The notes under the pieces: generated by a model
What the model was told of the DNA's origin: nothing
Seen by the model: only the letters and a program-made list of their open reading frames with translations
The model's database searches: none
Shown: piece after piece, positions 231 to 13,013 of the stretch
Position numbering within the stretch: position 1 is the first letter of the stretch
Layout: the number at the start of each line of letters is the position of its first letter
Position numbers and translations under genes: made by a program
Assembly: GCA_031256715.1 (NCBI GenBank)
Contig: JAIRQA010000073.1
Span: 1 to 42,952 of the forward strand
Reading direction: 5' to 3'
Source of the DNA: Coriobacteriales bacterium
Lineage (GTDB): Bacteria; Actinomycetota; Coriobacteriia; Coriobacteriales; UBA8131
Length of the DNA: 42,952 nt

Positions 231-1007
231 TTAATAAACTCGACAAACAGTCGCAGCCCTAACCTCAATTGCACCTGCCGTCAATAAAACCTCACCCGCT
301 ATGTTCAGTGTAGCTGTTGTTGTACAGACATCATCTAGCAAAATAATATTTTTACCACTTATGTCAGTTGTATCTTTTATCCCATTTATTTTTTCATTAG
401 TCATCACGCGCGCACTTGTGTCTGCCAAACGAAAGGCACGCGCTAAATTTTCTGCCCTCTCACTGCGATTCAGACTACGCTGATCGCGCACCGTCTCTTT
501 TTGCAGAACATGAGTTAACATAAGGCCAGTTAGCCTAGAAAACTCCTCTGCAACCAACCTCATATGACAAAAGCCACGCTTGCGTATAGCTCGCCTGTCT
601 GCGGGAATATAACAAACCAAATCGGCCCATTGAATCCAATCCTTTGGCATTACCTCAAGAATTGCAAGTGCACAAAGCGTTGCCAAGCGCTGCTCGTGTT
701 GGTCTTTATAGATAACTGTTAATCTTGCTGCTGCGTCACAGAACTCAAATGGACTTACCGACATCGTATAGCTTAGAGGCAAAGGACCTTTTGTGCCGCT
801 GCATTCAGTACAAACAATACAGCCATAAGGGGCACCACAGCGCTTGCACCTATTTTGTGAATCTATGCGTGGCAAATCGTCGTCACAATGCTCACATAAA
901 AGCTCACCAAGTTTGTCACAGCCTACGCATCTTAATGGCCAAAGTAACTCCATAAGAGTATTACTAAGCGATATCAGATGCGTTTCTAGCTTTTGATTTT
1001 CTATCAT
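231..1007 (-). CDS. comF: ComF family protein (phosphoribosyltransferase-like, DNA uptake)
   Basis: This 258-residue protein has the ComF layout. An N-terminal zinc-ribbon-like region has Cys at 27, 30, 38 and 41, then a second Cys cluster at about 54-69. A C-terminal type I phosphoribosyltransferase domain follows. The conserved RKRGF segment is at about 142-146 and the PRPP-binding loop (ILLDDVCTTTAT) at about 222-233. ComF proteins act in the cytoplasm during natural transformation, with helicase and DprA partners known in some species; their reaction is not settled. No other com gene is in the window. The gene lies downstream of rarA, about 170 bp away across a repeat-filled spacer, so co-transcription is uncertain. 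Confidence 0.9.
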   Translation of the reverse strand: MIENQKLETHLISLSNTLMELLWPLRCVGCDKLGELLCEHCDDDLPRIDSQNRCKRCGAPYGCIVCTECSGTKGPLPLSYTMSVSPFEFCDAAARLTVIYKDQHEQRLATLCALAILEVMPKDWIQWADLVCYIPADRRAIRKRGFCHMRLVAEEFSRLTGLMLTHVLQKETVRDQRSLNRSERAENLARAFRLADTSARVMTNEKINGIKDTTDISGKNIILLDDVCTTTATLNIAGEVLLTAGAIEVRAATVCRVY

Positions 1008-2883: not shown

Positions 2884-4377
2884 TTACGATTTTTTTGCCA
2901 AGTACTGTGCTACAACCCCAGAGTCAGTCATGATTGGCACAGAACCACTAGCGCGCAATTGACGATTCTCGTGCCCTTTACCGGCAACAACAACAACTGT
3001 CATCGCATCAGAGGCATCAATGGCAGTATGAATGGCCACTGTGCGATCTTCTATTGTGCGCGTCTTAGGCACGACTCTACCTGCTAATACAGCCGCATCA
3101 GATAATGCCTTGGCAATCTCATCGCAAATTAGAACAACAGGCTTTTTGTATGGATCGTCTTCTGTAAGAATAACATCATCTGCAAGTTTACCCGCAATAG
3201 CGCCCATCTCTGCGGGTCTATTTGGAGCCTTGCCACCAGGGCATCCAAAAACAAGACTAACGCGACGCTTTGGATACTGCTTGTGAACCAACTGTAAGAG
3301 CAGCTCTAAACTTGTGCCATTATGGGCATAATCTACAATAATAACTGCGCCCCAACTTGCAACAAATGTCTCCATCCGTCCCGGCACTCGCACTTGAGCA
3401 AGCCCGGCTTTAATAAACTCATCAGGAATATTTAAAGACTGGGCAATAGTAATAGCCGACAGAGCGTTTTGAGCGTTCATCTCGCCAGCTAAAGAAATGT
3501 TATAACCCTTGATACTTCCCGATACTAATACAAGGTTATCGCCTACAAAGGAATCTTTTGCTCTAGTGATGATTTCATCGTTAAGCTCTGCGCCAAGAAC
3601 CATGCAATCGCATTGTGTCGCAAGTGCTAGCTTGCTAACAAGATAGTCTTTCATATCTGGATGCTCAATTGGCCCTATATGGTCACGTGAGAAATTTAAA
3701 AAAGCGCCAATTGTAAAATGCAGCCCCTGAACACGGTGGTACTTAAGAGCTTGACTAGAAACCTCCATAACAAGGTACTCGCAACCATTGGCAACTGCGG
3801 CTTGCATGTATGAATAAATATCAAAAGTTTCCTCTGTAGTTAGGCGCGAAACCACAGACTCTTTGCCATTAAAATTTTGTATGCCGCTAAGCAGTGCGGC
3901 AGGCATCTTGCCTTCAGATTTAAGCCACTCATCCAAAATAGATTTAAGCATATATACTGTTGTAGATTTACCCTTTGTTCCGGTAACAGCCACTAGTTTA
4001 AGCTGATCTGCAATGCCTGGGAATGCAACTTGACAAGCTACTGGCATTGCTTGACGAATATCGCTAACAACAATCCCGGGAATCATTTGCTCTTCACTTA
4101 AACCAAGAAAGGCAGCTTCATAGGATTGTTCGCTTACATACGCAATAGCACCAGCTTTAATGGCTTGAGTTAAATAACTTTTATTAAACCTCTCGCCCTT
4201 GCAGAAAAACAGATAGCCAGGTTTTATGGCACGAGAGTCATAACTAATACCCGTAACAGTTTCATTGGTAACGCGCGATACGTCGCTGCAGTGAACAAGA
4301 TTATTGTTAAGAAGTAAATCAGAAGCACTAAAAGCAGCAAGATAGTTTACTAACTCACTTTCTTTACATGATGGCAT
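2884..4377 (-). CDS. murE: UDP-N-acetylmuramyl-tripeptide synthetase (MurE)
   Basis: This is a cytoplasmic Mur ligase that adds the third stem-peptide residue to UDP-MurNAc-L-Ala-D-Glu in peptidoglycan synthesis. I chose the ATG at 4377 because GGAG lies 6 nt upstream; it gives 497 residues, matching the family. An in-frame GTG at 4410 is possible. Numbered from 4410, the ATP loop GTKGKST is at 144-150, the carbamylated-Lys segment ends at K260, the substrate motif DYAHN is at 360-364 and GRME at 344-347. Where diaminopimelate-adding enzymes have DNPR, this protein has DDPY (418-421). The third residue may therefore not be meso-diaminopimelate. A 6S-like RNA lies upstream. Confidence 0.93.
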   Translation of the reverse strand: MPSCKESELVNYLAAFSASDLLLNNNLVHCSDVSRVTNETVTGISYDSRAIKPGYLFFCKGERFNKSYLTQAIKAGAIAYVSEQSYEAAFLGLSEEQMIPGIVVSDIRQAMPVACQVAFPGIADQLKLVAVTGTKGKSTTVYMLKSILDEWLKSEGKMPAALLSGIQNFNGKESVVSRLTTEETFDIYSYMQAAVANGCEYLVMEVSSQALKYHRVQGLHFTIGAFLNFSRDHIGPIEHPDMKDYLVSKLALATQCDCMVLGAELNDEIITRAKDSFVGDNLVLVSGSIKGYNISLAGEMNAQNALSAITIAQSLNIPDEFIKAGLAQVRVPGRMETFVASWGAVIIVDYAHNGTSLELLLQLVHKQYPKRRVSLVFGCPGGKAPNRPAEMGAIAGKLADDVILTEDDPYKKPVVLICDEIAKALSDAAVLAGRVVPKTRTIEDRTVAIHTAIDASDAMTVVVVAGKGHENRQLRASGSVPIMTDSGVVAQYLAKKS

Positions 4378-4472
4378 ATTTTGCTCCATCCCGCCGCCGC
4401 TAGGCGACACATGAAATAAATGGCTTCATTGACAGCCCATGCTAGGCACACTAGATGCCGGCAATAAAATAA

Positions 4473-4490
4473 CTTAACATTGCTGTTAAG
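4473..4490. promoter_or_regulatory. Perfect inverted repeat upstream of murE
   Basis: CTTAACA-TTGC-TGTTAAG is a 7-4-7 palindrome between the 6S-like RNA terminator and the murE start. On the minus strand it is followed by a T-rich stretch, so it could be a weak second terminator. It could equally be an operator for murE. Sequence alone does not decide. Confidence 0.5.
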
Positions 4491-4521
4491 TGCATACTGT
4501 CAGATATGTTGCTTAGTACAT

Positions 4522-4553
4522 GAAACGCCCCTGCACTCGGATGTACAGGGGCG
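4522..4553 (-). terminator. Rho-independent terminator after the 6S-like RNA
   Basis: On the minus strand an 8-bp GC-rich stem CGCCCCTG/CAGGGGCG with a 12-nt loop is followed by TTTC. It lies 8 nt beyond the closing stem of the predicted RNA. The short U-tract lowers confidence slightly. Confidence 0.7.
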
Positions 4554-4559
4554 GCTTCA

Positions 4560-4722
4560 GTCCTCATTCTTAAATCGACAGGATGAACCCACCTATCAAA
4601 AGGTGGGTGCCCGCACCGGAACAGCCAGCTTCCTTAACCAAGAAGGATACCTGTTTGAGTCGGTATCTGGATTCCCTATTCATTAATGTCGGTCCATCAA
4701 ATTAGCCGATTAAGAATGAGGT
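4560..4722 (-). ncRNA. ssrS: Candidate 6S RNA (structured, about 160 nt)
   Basis: The RNA would start at A4722, the expected distance from the -10 box at 4729-4734. Its ends pair over 15 bp (4721-4707 with 4577-4562, CCTCATTCTTAATCG against its complement with one bulge). Inside are a large weakly paired region, a 3'-side hairpin with stem CCCACCT/AGGTGGG, and an apical part where GGAA.CCAG pairs with CTGG...TTCC and caps a smaller ATACC/GGTAT hairpin. A long rod with a central bubble and a 3'-side bubble hairpin is the 6S architecture. In Bacillus, 6S-1 RNA neighbours rarA, and rarA is the second gene downstream here. 6S RNA binds the housekeeping sigma-RNA polymerase. Covariance-model confirmation is lacking. 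Confidence 0.62.
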
Positions 4723-4728
4723 AATAAA

Positions 4729-4756
4729 ACTATAGCAAACTTCGCGCCGAATGCAA
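4729..4756 (-). promoter_or_regulatory. Housekeeping-type promoter of the 6S-like RNA
   Basis: On the minus strand TTGCAT (4756-4751), a 16-nt spacer and TATAGT (4734-4729) precede the predicted RNA 5' end by 6-7 nt. The fit to the sigma-70/SigA consensus and to the start of the closing stem is close. Confidence 0.7.
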
Positions 4757-4840
4757 GTACCACTCACCGTAAATCTACGCCAAACTGTGCCATAAGTTTC
4801 TGTTCACGCCCCCATGCGTCATCCTGGGATTACAGTAACT

Positions 4841-5503
4841 CTACCGCGGGGTCTGACTATTGGTTTGGTTATTGGTTTGGTTATATGCGCGACCAAGCGC
4901 CAACAAGATCGGCTGAACACATGTTATAGCCACAGCAGCTTTAATCGCATCTACAATTATAAAAGGAAATACGCAGGCAACTAAAGTAGCCTCTATAGAC
5001 GCCGATGTAACTATGCTAAACCAAAGAGCTCCAAAGGTTGTATAAATCAGGTAGATTAAAATCGCTAGCGCAGCAGTCATTGCCACTGTTCCTCCGATTG
5101 TGCGGGGTAGCTTACCTGATTTTATCAAGAGATGACGCAGTAGGCCAACAACAATAGCGGCAAGCAAAAAGCCAAGCAGAAAACCGCCCGTCGGCCCTAA
5201 AATCCAAGCCAGTCCACCTTTAAAGCCTGCGCCAAGCGGCAAACCAATAGCACCCAACAACAGATATCCTCCTGTTGCAATCACACCTTCGCGGGGACTT
5301 AAGATATTCAGGATAATAACAAGCATCATCGTTTGTAAGGTAAAGGGCACAGGTCCCAAAGGCACAGAGATAAACGCCCCTACCGCCAAAAGCGCAATGC
5401 ATAAGCCGCAAAGTACAACTGACTGAGTCTTAGAACGCACTTTTGGAAGCGCAGTTTTACCCACATCATTGCCCTTGTTTGAATCATTAATAATAGTTAA
5501 CAT
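4841..5503 (-). CDS. bioY: Biotin ECF transporter substrate-binding component BioY
   Basis: This 220-residue membrane protein has about six hydrophobic segments. The BioY signature region near residues 48-62 (VPLGPVPFTLQT) is followed by a Gly-rich stretch (GGYLLLGAIGLP, then GPTGGFLLGF). BioY binds biotin with high affinity at the cytoplasmic membrane and works with an energy-coupling ATPase/EcfT module, which is not in this window. The ATG follows GGGAAG. The soluble N-terminus (about 28 residues) and the C-terminus are unusual. The last residues repeat Asn-Gln-Thr-Asn, encoded by two perfect 12-bp units at 4859-4882. The gene is 82 bp downstream of the pyruvate:ferredoxin oxidoreductase gene. 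Confidence 0.92.
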   Translation of the reverse strand: MLTIINDSNKGNDVGKTALPKVRSKTQSVVLCGLCIALLAVGAFISVPLGPVPFTLQTMMLVIILNILSPREGVIATGGYLLLGAIGLPLGAGFKGGLAWILGPTGGFLLGFLLAAIVVGLLRHLLIKSGKLPRTIGGTVAMTAALAILIYLIYTTFGALWFSIVTSASIEATLVACVFPFIIVDAIKAAVAITCVQPILLALGRAYNQTNNQTNSQTPR

Positions 5504-9629: not shown

Positions 9630-12600
9630 TTAAGCAGCAACTATACGCCATTGCTGATTACTTCCTCCATGGAACGGCCAAGTTATAACCTTTGTGCCAC
9701 TGGCATTTATGCCACCATAAACATCTAGGGCAAGGCCACTTTTTGCCGACACTACACTATAAACACCAGGTGTTAGCTGAATCAGCTCCCAACGCTGATT
9801 AAAGCCGCCATTTGAACCCCACTGAATTACATTGGCGCCTGCTGCCATACTGCCACCGTTAACATCCAGCAGTAAGCCTGATTTTACACACTTAATAACA
9901 TAGTAACCGCTAGATGCCTCGTAGCTAAAATTAAAGACCTGATTAGCGCCGCCATGTTGCGGCCAAATGATGGTCTGCGCGCCAGCAGCCATAGAAGCGC
10001 CATTGATATCAAAAAGTTTAAGCGAAGACACAGAAACAATATTCTTGTTGCCACCTGTAAGCTGAGCACTATAAACATTAATCCTAAAGCGCTCATTGTT
10101 GCCCCCAGAAACTGGCCAAAGAATTACCTTAGCGCCATTAGCAGATGAACCTCCGGAAATATTCAGGCAGAAGTTTTGGCTTAGCTTAGATACCAGGGTA
10201 AAAGTGCCATTGTCCTTCTCTACAGGTAACCACATCTGATTATTGCCACCAGTCTTTGGCCACTGAATAACCTTTGCACCAGCAAACGCAAGGCCTCCAG
10301 AGACATCAAGATACAATCCCGAGCCTACGCTGACAATATTATAATAGCCATTGCCAACATAAATCATCCTAAAACGTTGATTAGGTCCAACATGAGCTTG
10401 CCACAAATTTAGTTGAGTTCCTCCCTGTGCACTCATGCCTGGAATGTCTAAGTTGGATATATTGTTGAGAAGACTACTAAACGACACGACCTTGCCATCA
10501 AATCTGCTTGCATCGGTGCCGGATCCGGAACCGCCATTGCCGGAGCCGCCCGTACCAGAGCCTGTGTCTGAACCACCGCTACCCGTATTTCCTCCGCCTG
10601 AACCGCTGCCTGTGTTTCCACCAGAGCCACCAGAGCCAGAGCCTGTGCCAGAACCACCGCTGCCGCCACTGCTTGTGCTAGCAGTTACCGTTAGCTGGCC
10701 GTTTGTATATGTTATCCTATAATTGCTACTAACATCATTATTCCCCGCCTTAATAAGCGCATTGCTTGCGACATTAGCACTTGTGCCTACGTTAGTTTGT
10801 GAACCTGTTATTACAACCGAAGCAAGCGTTTGCCCAGAAGCTATGCCGCCAGACGTCACCCTCCAACTATTTTTTGTAAGTGCGTTGCCATCATAAGGCT
10901 TTGTGGCGCTGTCGGCGGTTATGCCTAGCGCACGCTGTGTCACAGTAAGTGTACCTTCGTTGCGAATAATACGCAAACGGCTGTACTCACCTGTAACATC
11001 AATATTATTATTAAAGAGGCGCACTTCGGCAATTGTGTTAATAGATGAGCCCACGTTTGTCTGGCTGCCGCTAACGACAGCCTCTACCTTTGTTACTCCA
11101 CGTGGTAACATATTTATTTCGGTCACACTGCTTGTTAATGGCACTCCATCATAAACTTTAGCAGTAGTCTTAGATTTCACCTCTAAACTGGGTAGCAAAT
11201 ATTCTAAAGCGGCACGCGCGTTAACTAAGCCATGTCCAAAAATGTCATCGCGACCAGGCGCACCTAAATCTTCTGCTGTGTTATAAAGCGCTTCTGTAAG
11301 TTCATCAACGCTTAGTGTTGGTTTTTCGGCAAAGAGCAAAGCGCAGATGCCGGAAACAACTGGAGTTGCCATAGAAGTGCCACTCTTTGTCGTAAAATCA
11401 GAGTCGTGAGAATAGGATGTGCTATAAATCACTTCACCCGGCGCGGCAATGTCTTTATATTGATTATAGTCTGAATAGAACGCTTGCCCTTTGCTTTGGG
11501 TAACAGAAACCACAGAGACAACCTCATCCCAATCGCTGGGATAACTTGTGTCTGTGCGCACACCACCATTACCATTGCCGGCAGCTGCCACACAGACAAT
11601 ACCCAGATTTTTGGCTTCGACAATTTTGGCGCGAAAAAGCGGGTCATCGCTGCTAGTATCATAATCACCAAAACTCATATTAATGACGCGCAAATTTGTT
11701 TGTGCTCTCTTAGAAAGCAAGTAATCCATAGCTCCTATGCAGGTAGCTGTATCGGAGACCCCCGAAGCAAAGATTAACACCGGCAGTATCTTAGCATTAA
11801 AAGAAACGCCGGCGCCCAGTTTGCCATTATTTACAGCCGCAGCCGCAATGCCCGCCACATGTGTTCCATGACCCGATGAGTCACCTACATTGCCAATAAG
11901 ACCATTAGCAACTGACTGCTGCAGATAGCAATTATTCACCTGATCCCATGCCAATATCGTACCATTAGCGTCCTTAGCTAGGTTTGGCGCTATATCTTCA
12001 TGTGTTAAGCGAACACCAGAATCTATGATACCAATGGTCACTTCTTGGTTTGTGCGGCGTAAATCCCAGGCTTTATAAGCATTAACCAAGCTTAGCCACC
12101 ACTGCTTCGAATCATTAGCATCTGGATCATTAACAGCAAAAAGCGGATTAAGTGAGCCACTTGACACAAGACCATTTTGTGTGTTGCTGCCCTGTATCAA
12201 GCCATGTGCAGAGTCCTGTGTTAAGTCTTGTGTTAAGTCTTGCGTAGAATTCTGCTCAGAAGCACTTGCGAACTCGTCTGCCTCAGAATCGTCAAAGAGA
12301 TGATAAATAAAGTTAGGCTGTGCAAACTTTACATTAGGGTCATTTGCTGCTACCAACAAAGCATCAGCCACAGTTACATCGCTTGGAAGCTCTACAACTG
12401 CCATTTTATCTTTGGCAATATCTTTATCTAAGAATACAGAGCTTTCAGTTTGAACATCTGCTGCGGTTGCCAAGATTTCTTTAGCCTCGGCAGAGTCTTC
12501 GTTATTCTCGACAGAAGCAAAAAATGAAATAGAGTCTAGATGTTCTTCAAGTTCATCCAATTCAGCCTCTAAAGGCTTATTTTCTGCCATGACAACAATG

Positions 12601-13013
12601 ATCTCATTAGACTTATAAGACTGTACGTCTTCTGGAACAGCCGAAACAACACCTGCGGCTTCTGCCTGTTTTAGTGTGCTATAGGTTGTCTTTTCAGCTT
12701 CTTCGCTGTCTTCTTGTTCGCTGTTGGTGCTGCTCGCGCTGCCAGAAGTTGCAGGACTTGCGGCATCAAGCTCAGATTCTAGGGCGTTTACTTGCCCCTT
12801 TGGCACATCAAGACCAAATTGTTCTGTAGTAGTCTCGCCGCTCTCTGATACAGATTTAGAAACTTGGCTAGCATCTGTCTTTGATTGCTCTGGTAAGATT
12901 TCTGCCTCTTGCTGAGGTAACGTCGATGACAAATCATTGGCATAGGCTGTGCCAGGCAAAAATAGAGCTGCTGTAAGCACAAACGCCAACAGTAAACGCG
13001 ATGCCTTTTTCAT
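9630..13013 (-). CDS. Secreted subtilisin-family protease with YDG-type repeats and two ricin-B lectin domains
   Basis: This 1,127-residue exported protein starts with a signal peptide (KK, hydrophobic core, cleavage near Ala25). A variable Glu/Ser-rich propeptide region follows to about 310. The S8 catalytic domain has Asp331 (GIIDSG), His382 (GHGTHVAG), Asn480 (AAAGN) and Ser547 (GTSMATP). Two related Ig-like YDG/MBG-type repeats (about 615-770, each with SGSQTNVG) lead to a Gly/Ser linker. Six QxW/F-like lectin repeats (for example GGNNQMW, GGFNQRW, GGSNQQW) then form two ricin-type beta-trefoils to the C-terminus. No sortase motif is present, so it is probably released or sugar-bound. The ATG follows AAGGAAG. 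A surface glycoprotein- or mucin-degrading role is inference. Confidence 0.93.
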   Translation of the reverse strand: MKKASRLLLAFVLTAALFLPGTAYANDLSSTLPQQEAEILPEQSKTDASQVSKSVSESGETTTEQFGLDVPKGQVNALESELDAASPATSGSASSTNSEQEDSEEAEKTTYSTLKQAEAAGVVSAVPEDVQSYKSNEIIVVMAENKPLEAELDELEEHLDSISFFASVENNEDSAEAKEILATAADVQTESSVFLDKDIAKDKMAVVELPSDVTVADALLVAANDPNVKFAQPNFIYHLFDDSEADEFASASEQNSTQDLTQDLTQDSAHGLIQGSNTQNGLVSSGSLNPLFAVNDPDANDSKQWWLSLVNAYKAWDLRRTNQEVTIGIIDSGVRLTHEDIAPNLAKDANGTILAWDQVNNCYLQQSVANGLIGNVGDSSGHGTHVAGIAAAAVNNGKLGAGVSFNAKILPVLIFASGVSDTATCIGAMDYLLSKRAQTNLRVINMSFGDYDTSSDDPLFRAKIVEAKNLGIVCVAAAGNGNGGVRTDTSYPSDWDEVVSVVSVTQSKGQAFYSDYNQYKDIAAPGEVIYSTSYSHDSDFTTKSGTSMATPVVSGICALLFAEKPTLSVDELTEALYNTAEDLGAPGRDDIFGHGLVNARAALEYLLPSLEVKSKTTAKVYDGVPLTSSVTEINMLPRGVTKVEAVVSGSQTNVGSSINTIAEVRLFNNNIDVTGEYSRLRIIRNEGTLTVTQRALGITADSATKPYDGNALTKNSWRVTSGGIASGQTLASVVITGSQTNVGTSANVASNALIKAGNNDVSSNYRITYTNGQLTVTASTSSGGSGGSGTGSGSGGSGGNTGSGSGGGNTGSGGSDTGSGTGGSGNGGSGSGTDASRFDGKVVSFSSLLNNISNLDIPGMSAQGGTQLNLWQAHVGPNQRFRMIYVGNGYYNIVSVGSGLYLDVSGGLAFAGAKVIQWPKTGGNNQMWLPVEKDNGTFTLVSKLSQNFCLNISGGSSANGAKVILWPVSGGNNERFRINVYSAQLTGGNKNIVSVSSLKLFDINGASMAAGAQTIIWPQHGGANQVFNFSYEASSGYYVIKCVKSGLLLDVNGGSMAAGANVIQWGSNGGFNQRWELIQLTPGVYSVVSAKSGLALDVYGGINASGTKVITWPFHGGSNQQWRIVAA

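Follow-up and report, generated by a model that had tools for sequence, protein, structure and literature searches.

Which RNA, if any, is encoded in the spacer between bioY and murE on contig JAIRQA010000073.1 of a Coriobacteriales bacterium (assembly GCA_031256715.1)? We analysed computationally a 42,952-nt stretch of this contig, referred to here as the window, in which the original prediction had placed a 6S RNA gene of about 160 nt without giving its strand. The results indicate that the window very likely carries the 6S RNA gene (ssrS), present in a single copy, of a bacterium belonging to the Coriobacteriia, a class of the phylum Actinomycetota. The gene was located between bioY and murE as proposed, on the minus strand, and the length of the RNA, judged from the placement of the ‒10 box together with the closing stem, is approximately 163 nt, in agreement with the predicted size. 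We read it as an ordinary coriobacterial 6S RNA with a diverged sequence, a further member of a known family and no new RNA type. The candidate was borne out by homologues that match the Rfam 6S RNA model (RF00013), by a reciprocal test with a family-built covariance model, R1, and by covariation in the closing stem.

When 40 related genomes were searched by blastn with window positions 4500–4760, 28 of them, representing 10 families of the order, gave matches. In genomes with both a blastn and an RF00013 match, the two coincide at the places that we compared. On contig G004:C1, from a genome of the window's family, the blastn match lies at 204235–204393 (80% identity) and the RF00013 match at 204224–204401 (48.1 bits); at the locus listed as both L031 and L083, which are one contig, RF00013 scored 48.1 bits and blastn with the window RNA showed 80% identity. 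The curated cut-off of RF00013 is 46.4 bits, and the window RNA is homologous to sequences above it. When all Rfam families were compared by cmscan, none but RF00013 exceeded its cut-off at L031, L032, L033, L034 and L036, and likewise in L083, L100, L102 (labelled ‘Actinomycetes bacterium’ only), L103 and L105. Matches near the locus to Gut-1 (22 bits, cut-off 50), Spot 42 (15 bits, cut-off 80) and TtnuCD11 (below its cut-off) were taken as chance. At E ≤ 1, RF00013 was detected in 103 of the 120 genomes of the order, at one place each, and in 86 of the 89 good-quality genomes; five of the matches were above the cut-off, which misses approximately 95% of the 6S copies of the order.

The model R1 was built from an alignment (A1) of 17 sequences of the window's family, which leaves out split or N-interrupted copies (L015/L029 from one genome and L022/L030 from another) and duplicates (L004, identical to L031, and L011, identical to L056). 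With R1, one copy was found in the window's own genome (161.4 bits), and one copy each in 187 of the 197 genomes of the class, with 167 of 169 among those of good quality. Within a sample of the phylum, R1 matched 33 of 296 genomes, and all four of these outside the class coincided with RF00013 places. In the reverse test, 20 strong RF00013 loci from other classes were searched with R1, which found 18 of them at identical coordinates. Since RF00013 matches the relatives of the window RNA and R1 recovers 6S loci outside the class, the link to 6S RNA is reciprocal. As a separate observation in the same phylum sample, RF00013 matched at E ≤ 0.001 in 101 of 296 genomes, 28 in the class and 73 outside it; by row count (L062–L081 being taken from this sample), 71 of these 73 were over the cut-off.

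The predicted fold supports the same identity. The stretch 4730–4520, which takes in the downstream hairpin, folded at ‒87.3 kcal/mol, whereas dinucleotide shuffles gave ‒58.3 kcal/mol (standard deviation 4.25). This corresponds to z = ‒6.8, none of the 200 shuffles was as stable, and no additional 5′ hairpin appeared in this fold. The closing stem consists of 12 unbroken pairs, a one-base bulge and five further pairs; the helix described in the original prediction is therefore present, but with 17 pairs in the minimum free energy structure instead of 15 bp. In A1, where 16 pairs of the closing stem are aligned and 95.9% of cells are paired, compensatory changes were found, as predicted, in five of the 16 pairs and in 11 cells, against shuffled means of 2.1 pairs and 4.0 cells; values as high were reached in 1 of 500 shuffles for pairs and in none for cells. 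The shuffles do not preserve the relatedness of the sequences and the slid controls do, and in these controls the stem was 37–59% paired, with 0–3 pairs and 0–8 cells changed on both sides; the slide by +1 gave eight double-changed cells, near the real value of 11 on that one measure. For the whole A1 structure of 45 pairs, 12 pairs (33 cells) were changed on both sides and 96.6% of cells were paired, compared with 34–54% when slid, and none of 500 shuffles reached any of these measures. All six pairs of helix 5, in the apical arm, showed changes on both sides.

We also used an alignment of the order (A2). Its 51 sequences comprise the window (L001), 45 of the 46 other rows of the synteny table, and L006, L012, L013, L014 and L016. 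Of the 60 loci, 47 are covered by the tables for synteny, promoters and terminators, and the row dropped from A2, L051, is identical to L049. Because it aligned poorly across families, the closing stem was left out of the A2 structure, and its covariation thus covers the window's family only. The internal helices were 95.9% paired in A2, with 201 double-changed cells versus 75.9 in shuffles; the measure of further pair types was reached by 32 of 500 shuffles. Taken together, covariation supports the rod-like architecture of 6S RNA, with a closing stem, a large central bubble and an apical arm.

The 5′ central-bubble segment GAUGGACCGAC is among the most conserved parts of the RNA. Positions G25, U27, G28, A30, C31 and C32 of the RNA, in the proposed template segment, were invariant in 51 of 51 sequences, and among the 17 family members aligned in A1 the segments GAUGGACCGAC and CACCCACCU..AGGUGGGUUCAU were almost invariant, which distinguishes this family from known 6S RNAs. 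The predicted product RNA (pRNA) would read approximately 5′-GUCGGUCCAUC, with GG at positions 4/5, from a start site that we infer from the sequence; the complement of GAUGGACCGAC, 5′-GUCGGUCC, also has GG at 4/5. According to PMC8414754, GG at positions 4/5 or 5/6 is the hallmark of pRNA, with 4/5 the rule for E. coli and others, and a hairpin opposite the bubble is a feature of lactic acid bacterial 6S RNA and B. subtilis 6S-1. Among the 51 sequences, the four core pairs of the 3′ hairpin were kept in 99% of cells and the template helix in 99.3%. The sequence GGUUCAUC next to the 3′ hairpin can pair instead with GAUGGACC of the template side, and the template helix overlaps the extended 3′ hairpin and would compete with it, suggesting a bubble with two states.

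Upstream of the RNA, a ‒10 box was sought as a match of at least 5/6 to TATAAT, with A2 and T6, in 37 nt around the RNA start. Such a box was present in 42 of the 47 loci, against a mean of 6.8 (maximum 11) in 200 shuffles, and from its placement in the window transcription would start near A4722. The promoter that had been called consensus-like is accordingly supported in its conserved ‒10 element, but the description was overstated, as the total is 8 of 12 consensus matches; the window promoter was absent from the promoter-scan list, which requires 9 of 12. The GC-rich hairpin predicted as the terminator is present (11 pairs, 8 of them G-C, a loop of 6, then TTTCATGT), but with a weak T-run. 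By an ad hoc pattern, a terminator-like site was found within 85 nt downstream in 14 of 47 loci versus 0.8 in shuffles, and 33 of 47 loci failed the pattern in these 85 nt; the terminator is only partly supported.

Several observations weigh against the assignment to 6S RNA. A scan of the whole window with Rfam at the gathering score gave no 6S match, the sole match being a tRNA, and a permissive scan of 451 bases aligned the window copy to RF00013 over the full model length (4560–4722, minus strand) at 12.2 bits (E = 3.8), compared with the cut-off of 46.4 bits, indicating the divergence of its sequence from known 6S RNAs. The window's own genome was without an RF00013 match at E ≤ 0.001 or E ≤ 1. 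Lying under the cut-off, the window sequence could not by itself identify a 6S RNA, and its membership is by descent, through its relatives; the suggested search with the 6S covariance model thus fails for the window alone but succeeds at homologous loci, five of them above the cut-off. In addition, the promoter has a poor ‒35 box, and the T-run of the terminator is short. Finally, the pRNA switch was nonspecific in simulated folding, as blocking a neighbouring 14-nt stretch also favoured the 3′ hairpin: the hairpin exceeded 0.5 in 40 of 51 sequences when free, in 50 with the template blocked and in 49 with the control block. Because the control block shifts the fold nearly equally, the simulation is not evidence for the switch, which we infer.

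Compared with known systems, the RNA most resembles 6S RNA (RF00013), especially B. subtilis 6S-1 (BsrA) and the 6S RNA of lactic acid bacteria, with which it shares the length, the closing stem, the 5′ central bubble with its opposite hairpin, the apical arm, a predicted pRNA with GG at 4/5 or 5/6, the rarA neighbourhood and a ‒10 box of its own. Its size of approximately 160 nt falls within the range of about 160–200 nt for 6S RNA, near the lower limit for those known (PMC11077062). Another 6S-like RNA of the same phylum is Ms1 of Mycobacterium and Streptomyces, which binds the RNA polymerase core without sigma, and which PMC9130861 reports across many actinobacteria and as structurally related to 6S RNA. 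Binding to core and to holoenzyme are indistinguishable from sequence, and an Ms1-type RNA might be considered here. However, Ms1 is approximately 300 nt in length and has added terminal hairpins, 5′ and 3′, beside the central bubble (PMC9130861), whereas the window RNA, of about 160 nt, is homologous to RF00013 in both directions and stands in the 6S/rarA neighbourhood; the term rarA is absent from the main text of PMC9130861. We thus consider an Ms1-type RNA improbable.

The neighbourhood itself was analysed in the 47 loci of the synteny table. Within the flank examined (up to 1.5 kb), rarA was found in 24 loci: in 10 it lies downstream on the same strand, with gaps of 40–156 nt, and in 14 upstream and divergent, with gaps of 111–1019 nt. 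For the other 23 rows, that of the window included, rarA is outside this flank and the RNA persists. The order in the window is the RNA, murE (gap 149 nt) and then rarA, so that the linkage to rarA claimed for this locus is recurrent but interrupted here by murE; among the 11 same-family relatives in the table, rarA directly follows the RNA in eight. In a set of 80 records selected by RarA, the R1 RNA was detected no more than 4 kb from rarA in 14 (E < 0.001), all among the 23 coriobacterial-type records (L082–L103 and L105). Slackia piriformis has a copy of the RNA at L089 1818–1984. RF00013 was found near rarA in the Brevibacillus records L106 and L108 and not in the third, L104. According to PMC8414754, almost all lactic acid bacteria have rarA adjoining the 6S gene, and in B. 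subtilis, where it runs in the opposite direction, it is also close to 6S-1, so that the comparison with the Bacillus neighbourhood in the original prediction was right in kind.

This arrangement bears on whether the RNA could be a cis-regulatory leader or attenuator of murE or rarA rather than a free RNA. In the window it precedes murE, which is encoded on the same strand, and in the 10 loci noted above it precedes a same-strand rarA; yet the RNA persists where rarA is upstream and divergent or outside the examined flank, and in the window it is followed by the terminator-like hairpin, making a leader highly improbable. A chance inverted repeat or a protein-coding stretch (the 68-aa ORF at 4480–4686, which overlaps on the plus strand and is without a Pfam match) has a negligible probability, being already refuted by the structure-specific covariation and by the presence of the RNA, once per genome, in 187 of the 197 class members surveyed.

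By eye, a TGTCAAGACT motif (TTGACA on the opposite strand) was observed approximately 30–60 nt upstream of the RNA in L034, L036, L042, L045, L047, L053 and others. It recurs where rarA is divergent and resembles a ‒35 box that would belong to a rarA promoter in back-to-back arrangement. In L101, a record of uncultured Gordonibacter, a fluoride riboswitch (RF01734, 40.6 bits) was found near rarA at 225–301 on the minus strand.

As a 6S RNA, the window RNA would be expected to act as follows. From established 6S biology, it would accumulate as growth slows, imitate an open promoter and bind the housekeeping sigma-70-type holoenzyme, thereby dampening transcription at housekeeping promoters; the window's own genome encodes a sigma-70-type factor (Sigma70_r3, 105.6 bits). 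On recovery, RNA polymerase would copy GAUGGACCGAC into a short product RNA starting near 5′-GUCGGUCC, and this product may open the bubble, lock the 3′ hairpin and release RNA polymerase. Both holoenzyme binding and release are proposed here by analogy with known 6S biology (PMC11077062).

Table. Position of the proposed 6S RNA gene, its parts and its neighbouring genes in the window
Feature	Position	Strand	Evidence or remark
6S RNA gene, proposed extent of the transcript (~163 nt)	4560–4722	‒	5′ end near A4722; R1 161.4 bits
Closing stem, 5′ strand	4705–4721	‒	17 pairs with 4562–4578
Closing stem, 3′ strand	4562–4578	‒	17 pairs with 4705–4721
5′ central-bubble segment GAUGGACCGACAU	4686–4698	‒	Proposed template of pRNA
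3′ central-bubble segment, hairpin ACCCACCU-UUUGAU-AGGUGGGU then UCAUC	4582–4608	‒	Hairpin pairs kept, 51 sequences
Apical arm	4609–4676	‒	Double-sided changes with pairing kept in several helices, 51 sequences
‒10 box TATAGT	4734–4729	‒	5/6 consensus match
‒35 box TTGCAT, weak	4756–4751	‒	3/6 match, spacer 16
GC-rich hairpin, probable terminator, weak T-tail	4553–4526	‒	Terminator scan
rarA (mgsA), syntenic marker gene	1177–2673	‒	Pfam PF12002 (MgsA_C, 7.5e-60), PF16193
murE	2884–4410	‒	TIGR01085 over its cut-off
bioY	4841–5503	‒	BioY family, Pfam PF02632

Two other features of the window were observed. Downstream of rarA, the ORF at 231–1007 (minus strand) encodes a phosphoribosyltransferase that is ComF-like and carries a double zinc ribbon (Pfam PF00156, PF18912), with a score under the NCBIfam ComF cut-off. 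The 1127-aa ORF at 9630–13013 (minus strand) shows by eye GTSMATP and C-terminal repeats; it is a putative subtilisin-type protease whose repeats resemble ricin-type lectin units.

In the open literature, nothing relevant was found on 6S RNA with Coriobacter, Eggerthella, Slackia or Atopobium, nor with rarA and Actinobacteria. A 2014 survey by Wehner and colleagues may already list some coriobacterial 6S RNAs. Elsewhere, 6S RNA is described as widespread except in Actinobacteria (PMC9130861), with no 6S RNA identified in actinobacteria save one Streptomyces candidate (PMC11077062). The single-copy 6S gene in 187 of 197 genomes of the Coriobacteriia, the class that includes Slackia, contrasts with both descriptions, and the RF00013 matches in 73 genomes of the phylum outside the class fit badly with the statement that actinobacteria are without 6S RNA. 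The standard cut-off is passed in five of the 120 genomes of the order, and a class-specific model fixes this annotation gap; by giving exact coordinates and predicting the pRNA, such a model is useful for annotation. A tentative reading, which we regard as possible but rather doubtful, is that 6S RNA was kept from an ancestor in the Coriobacteriia, often still beside rarA, and in several other Actinomycetota families outside the class, as judged by RF00013 matches; its loss or remodelling into Ms1 would then have taken place only in part of the phylum, and the near-invariant two-state central bubble may reflect how the switch for pRNA release was tuned specifically in this lineage.
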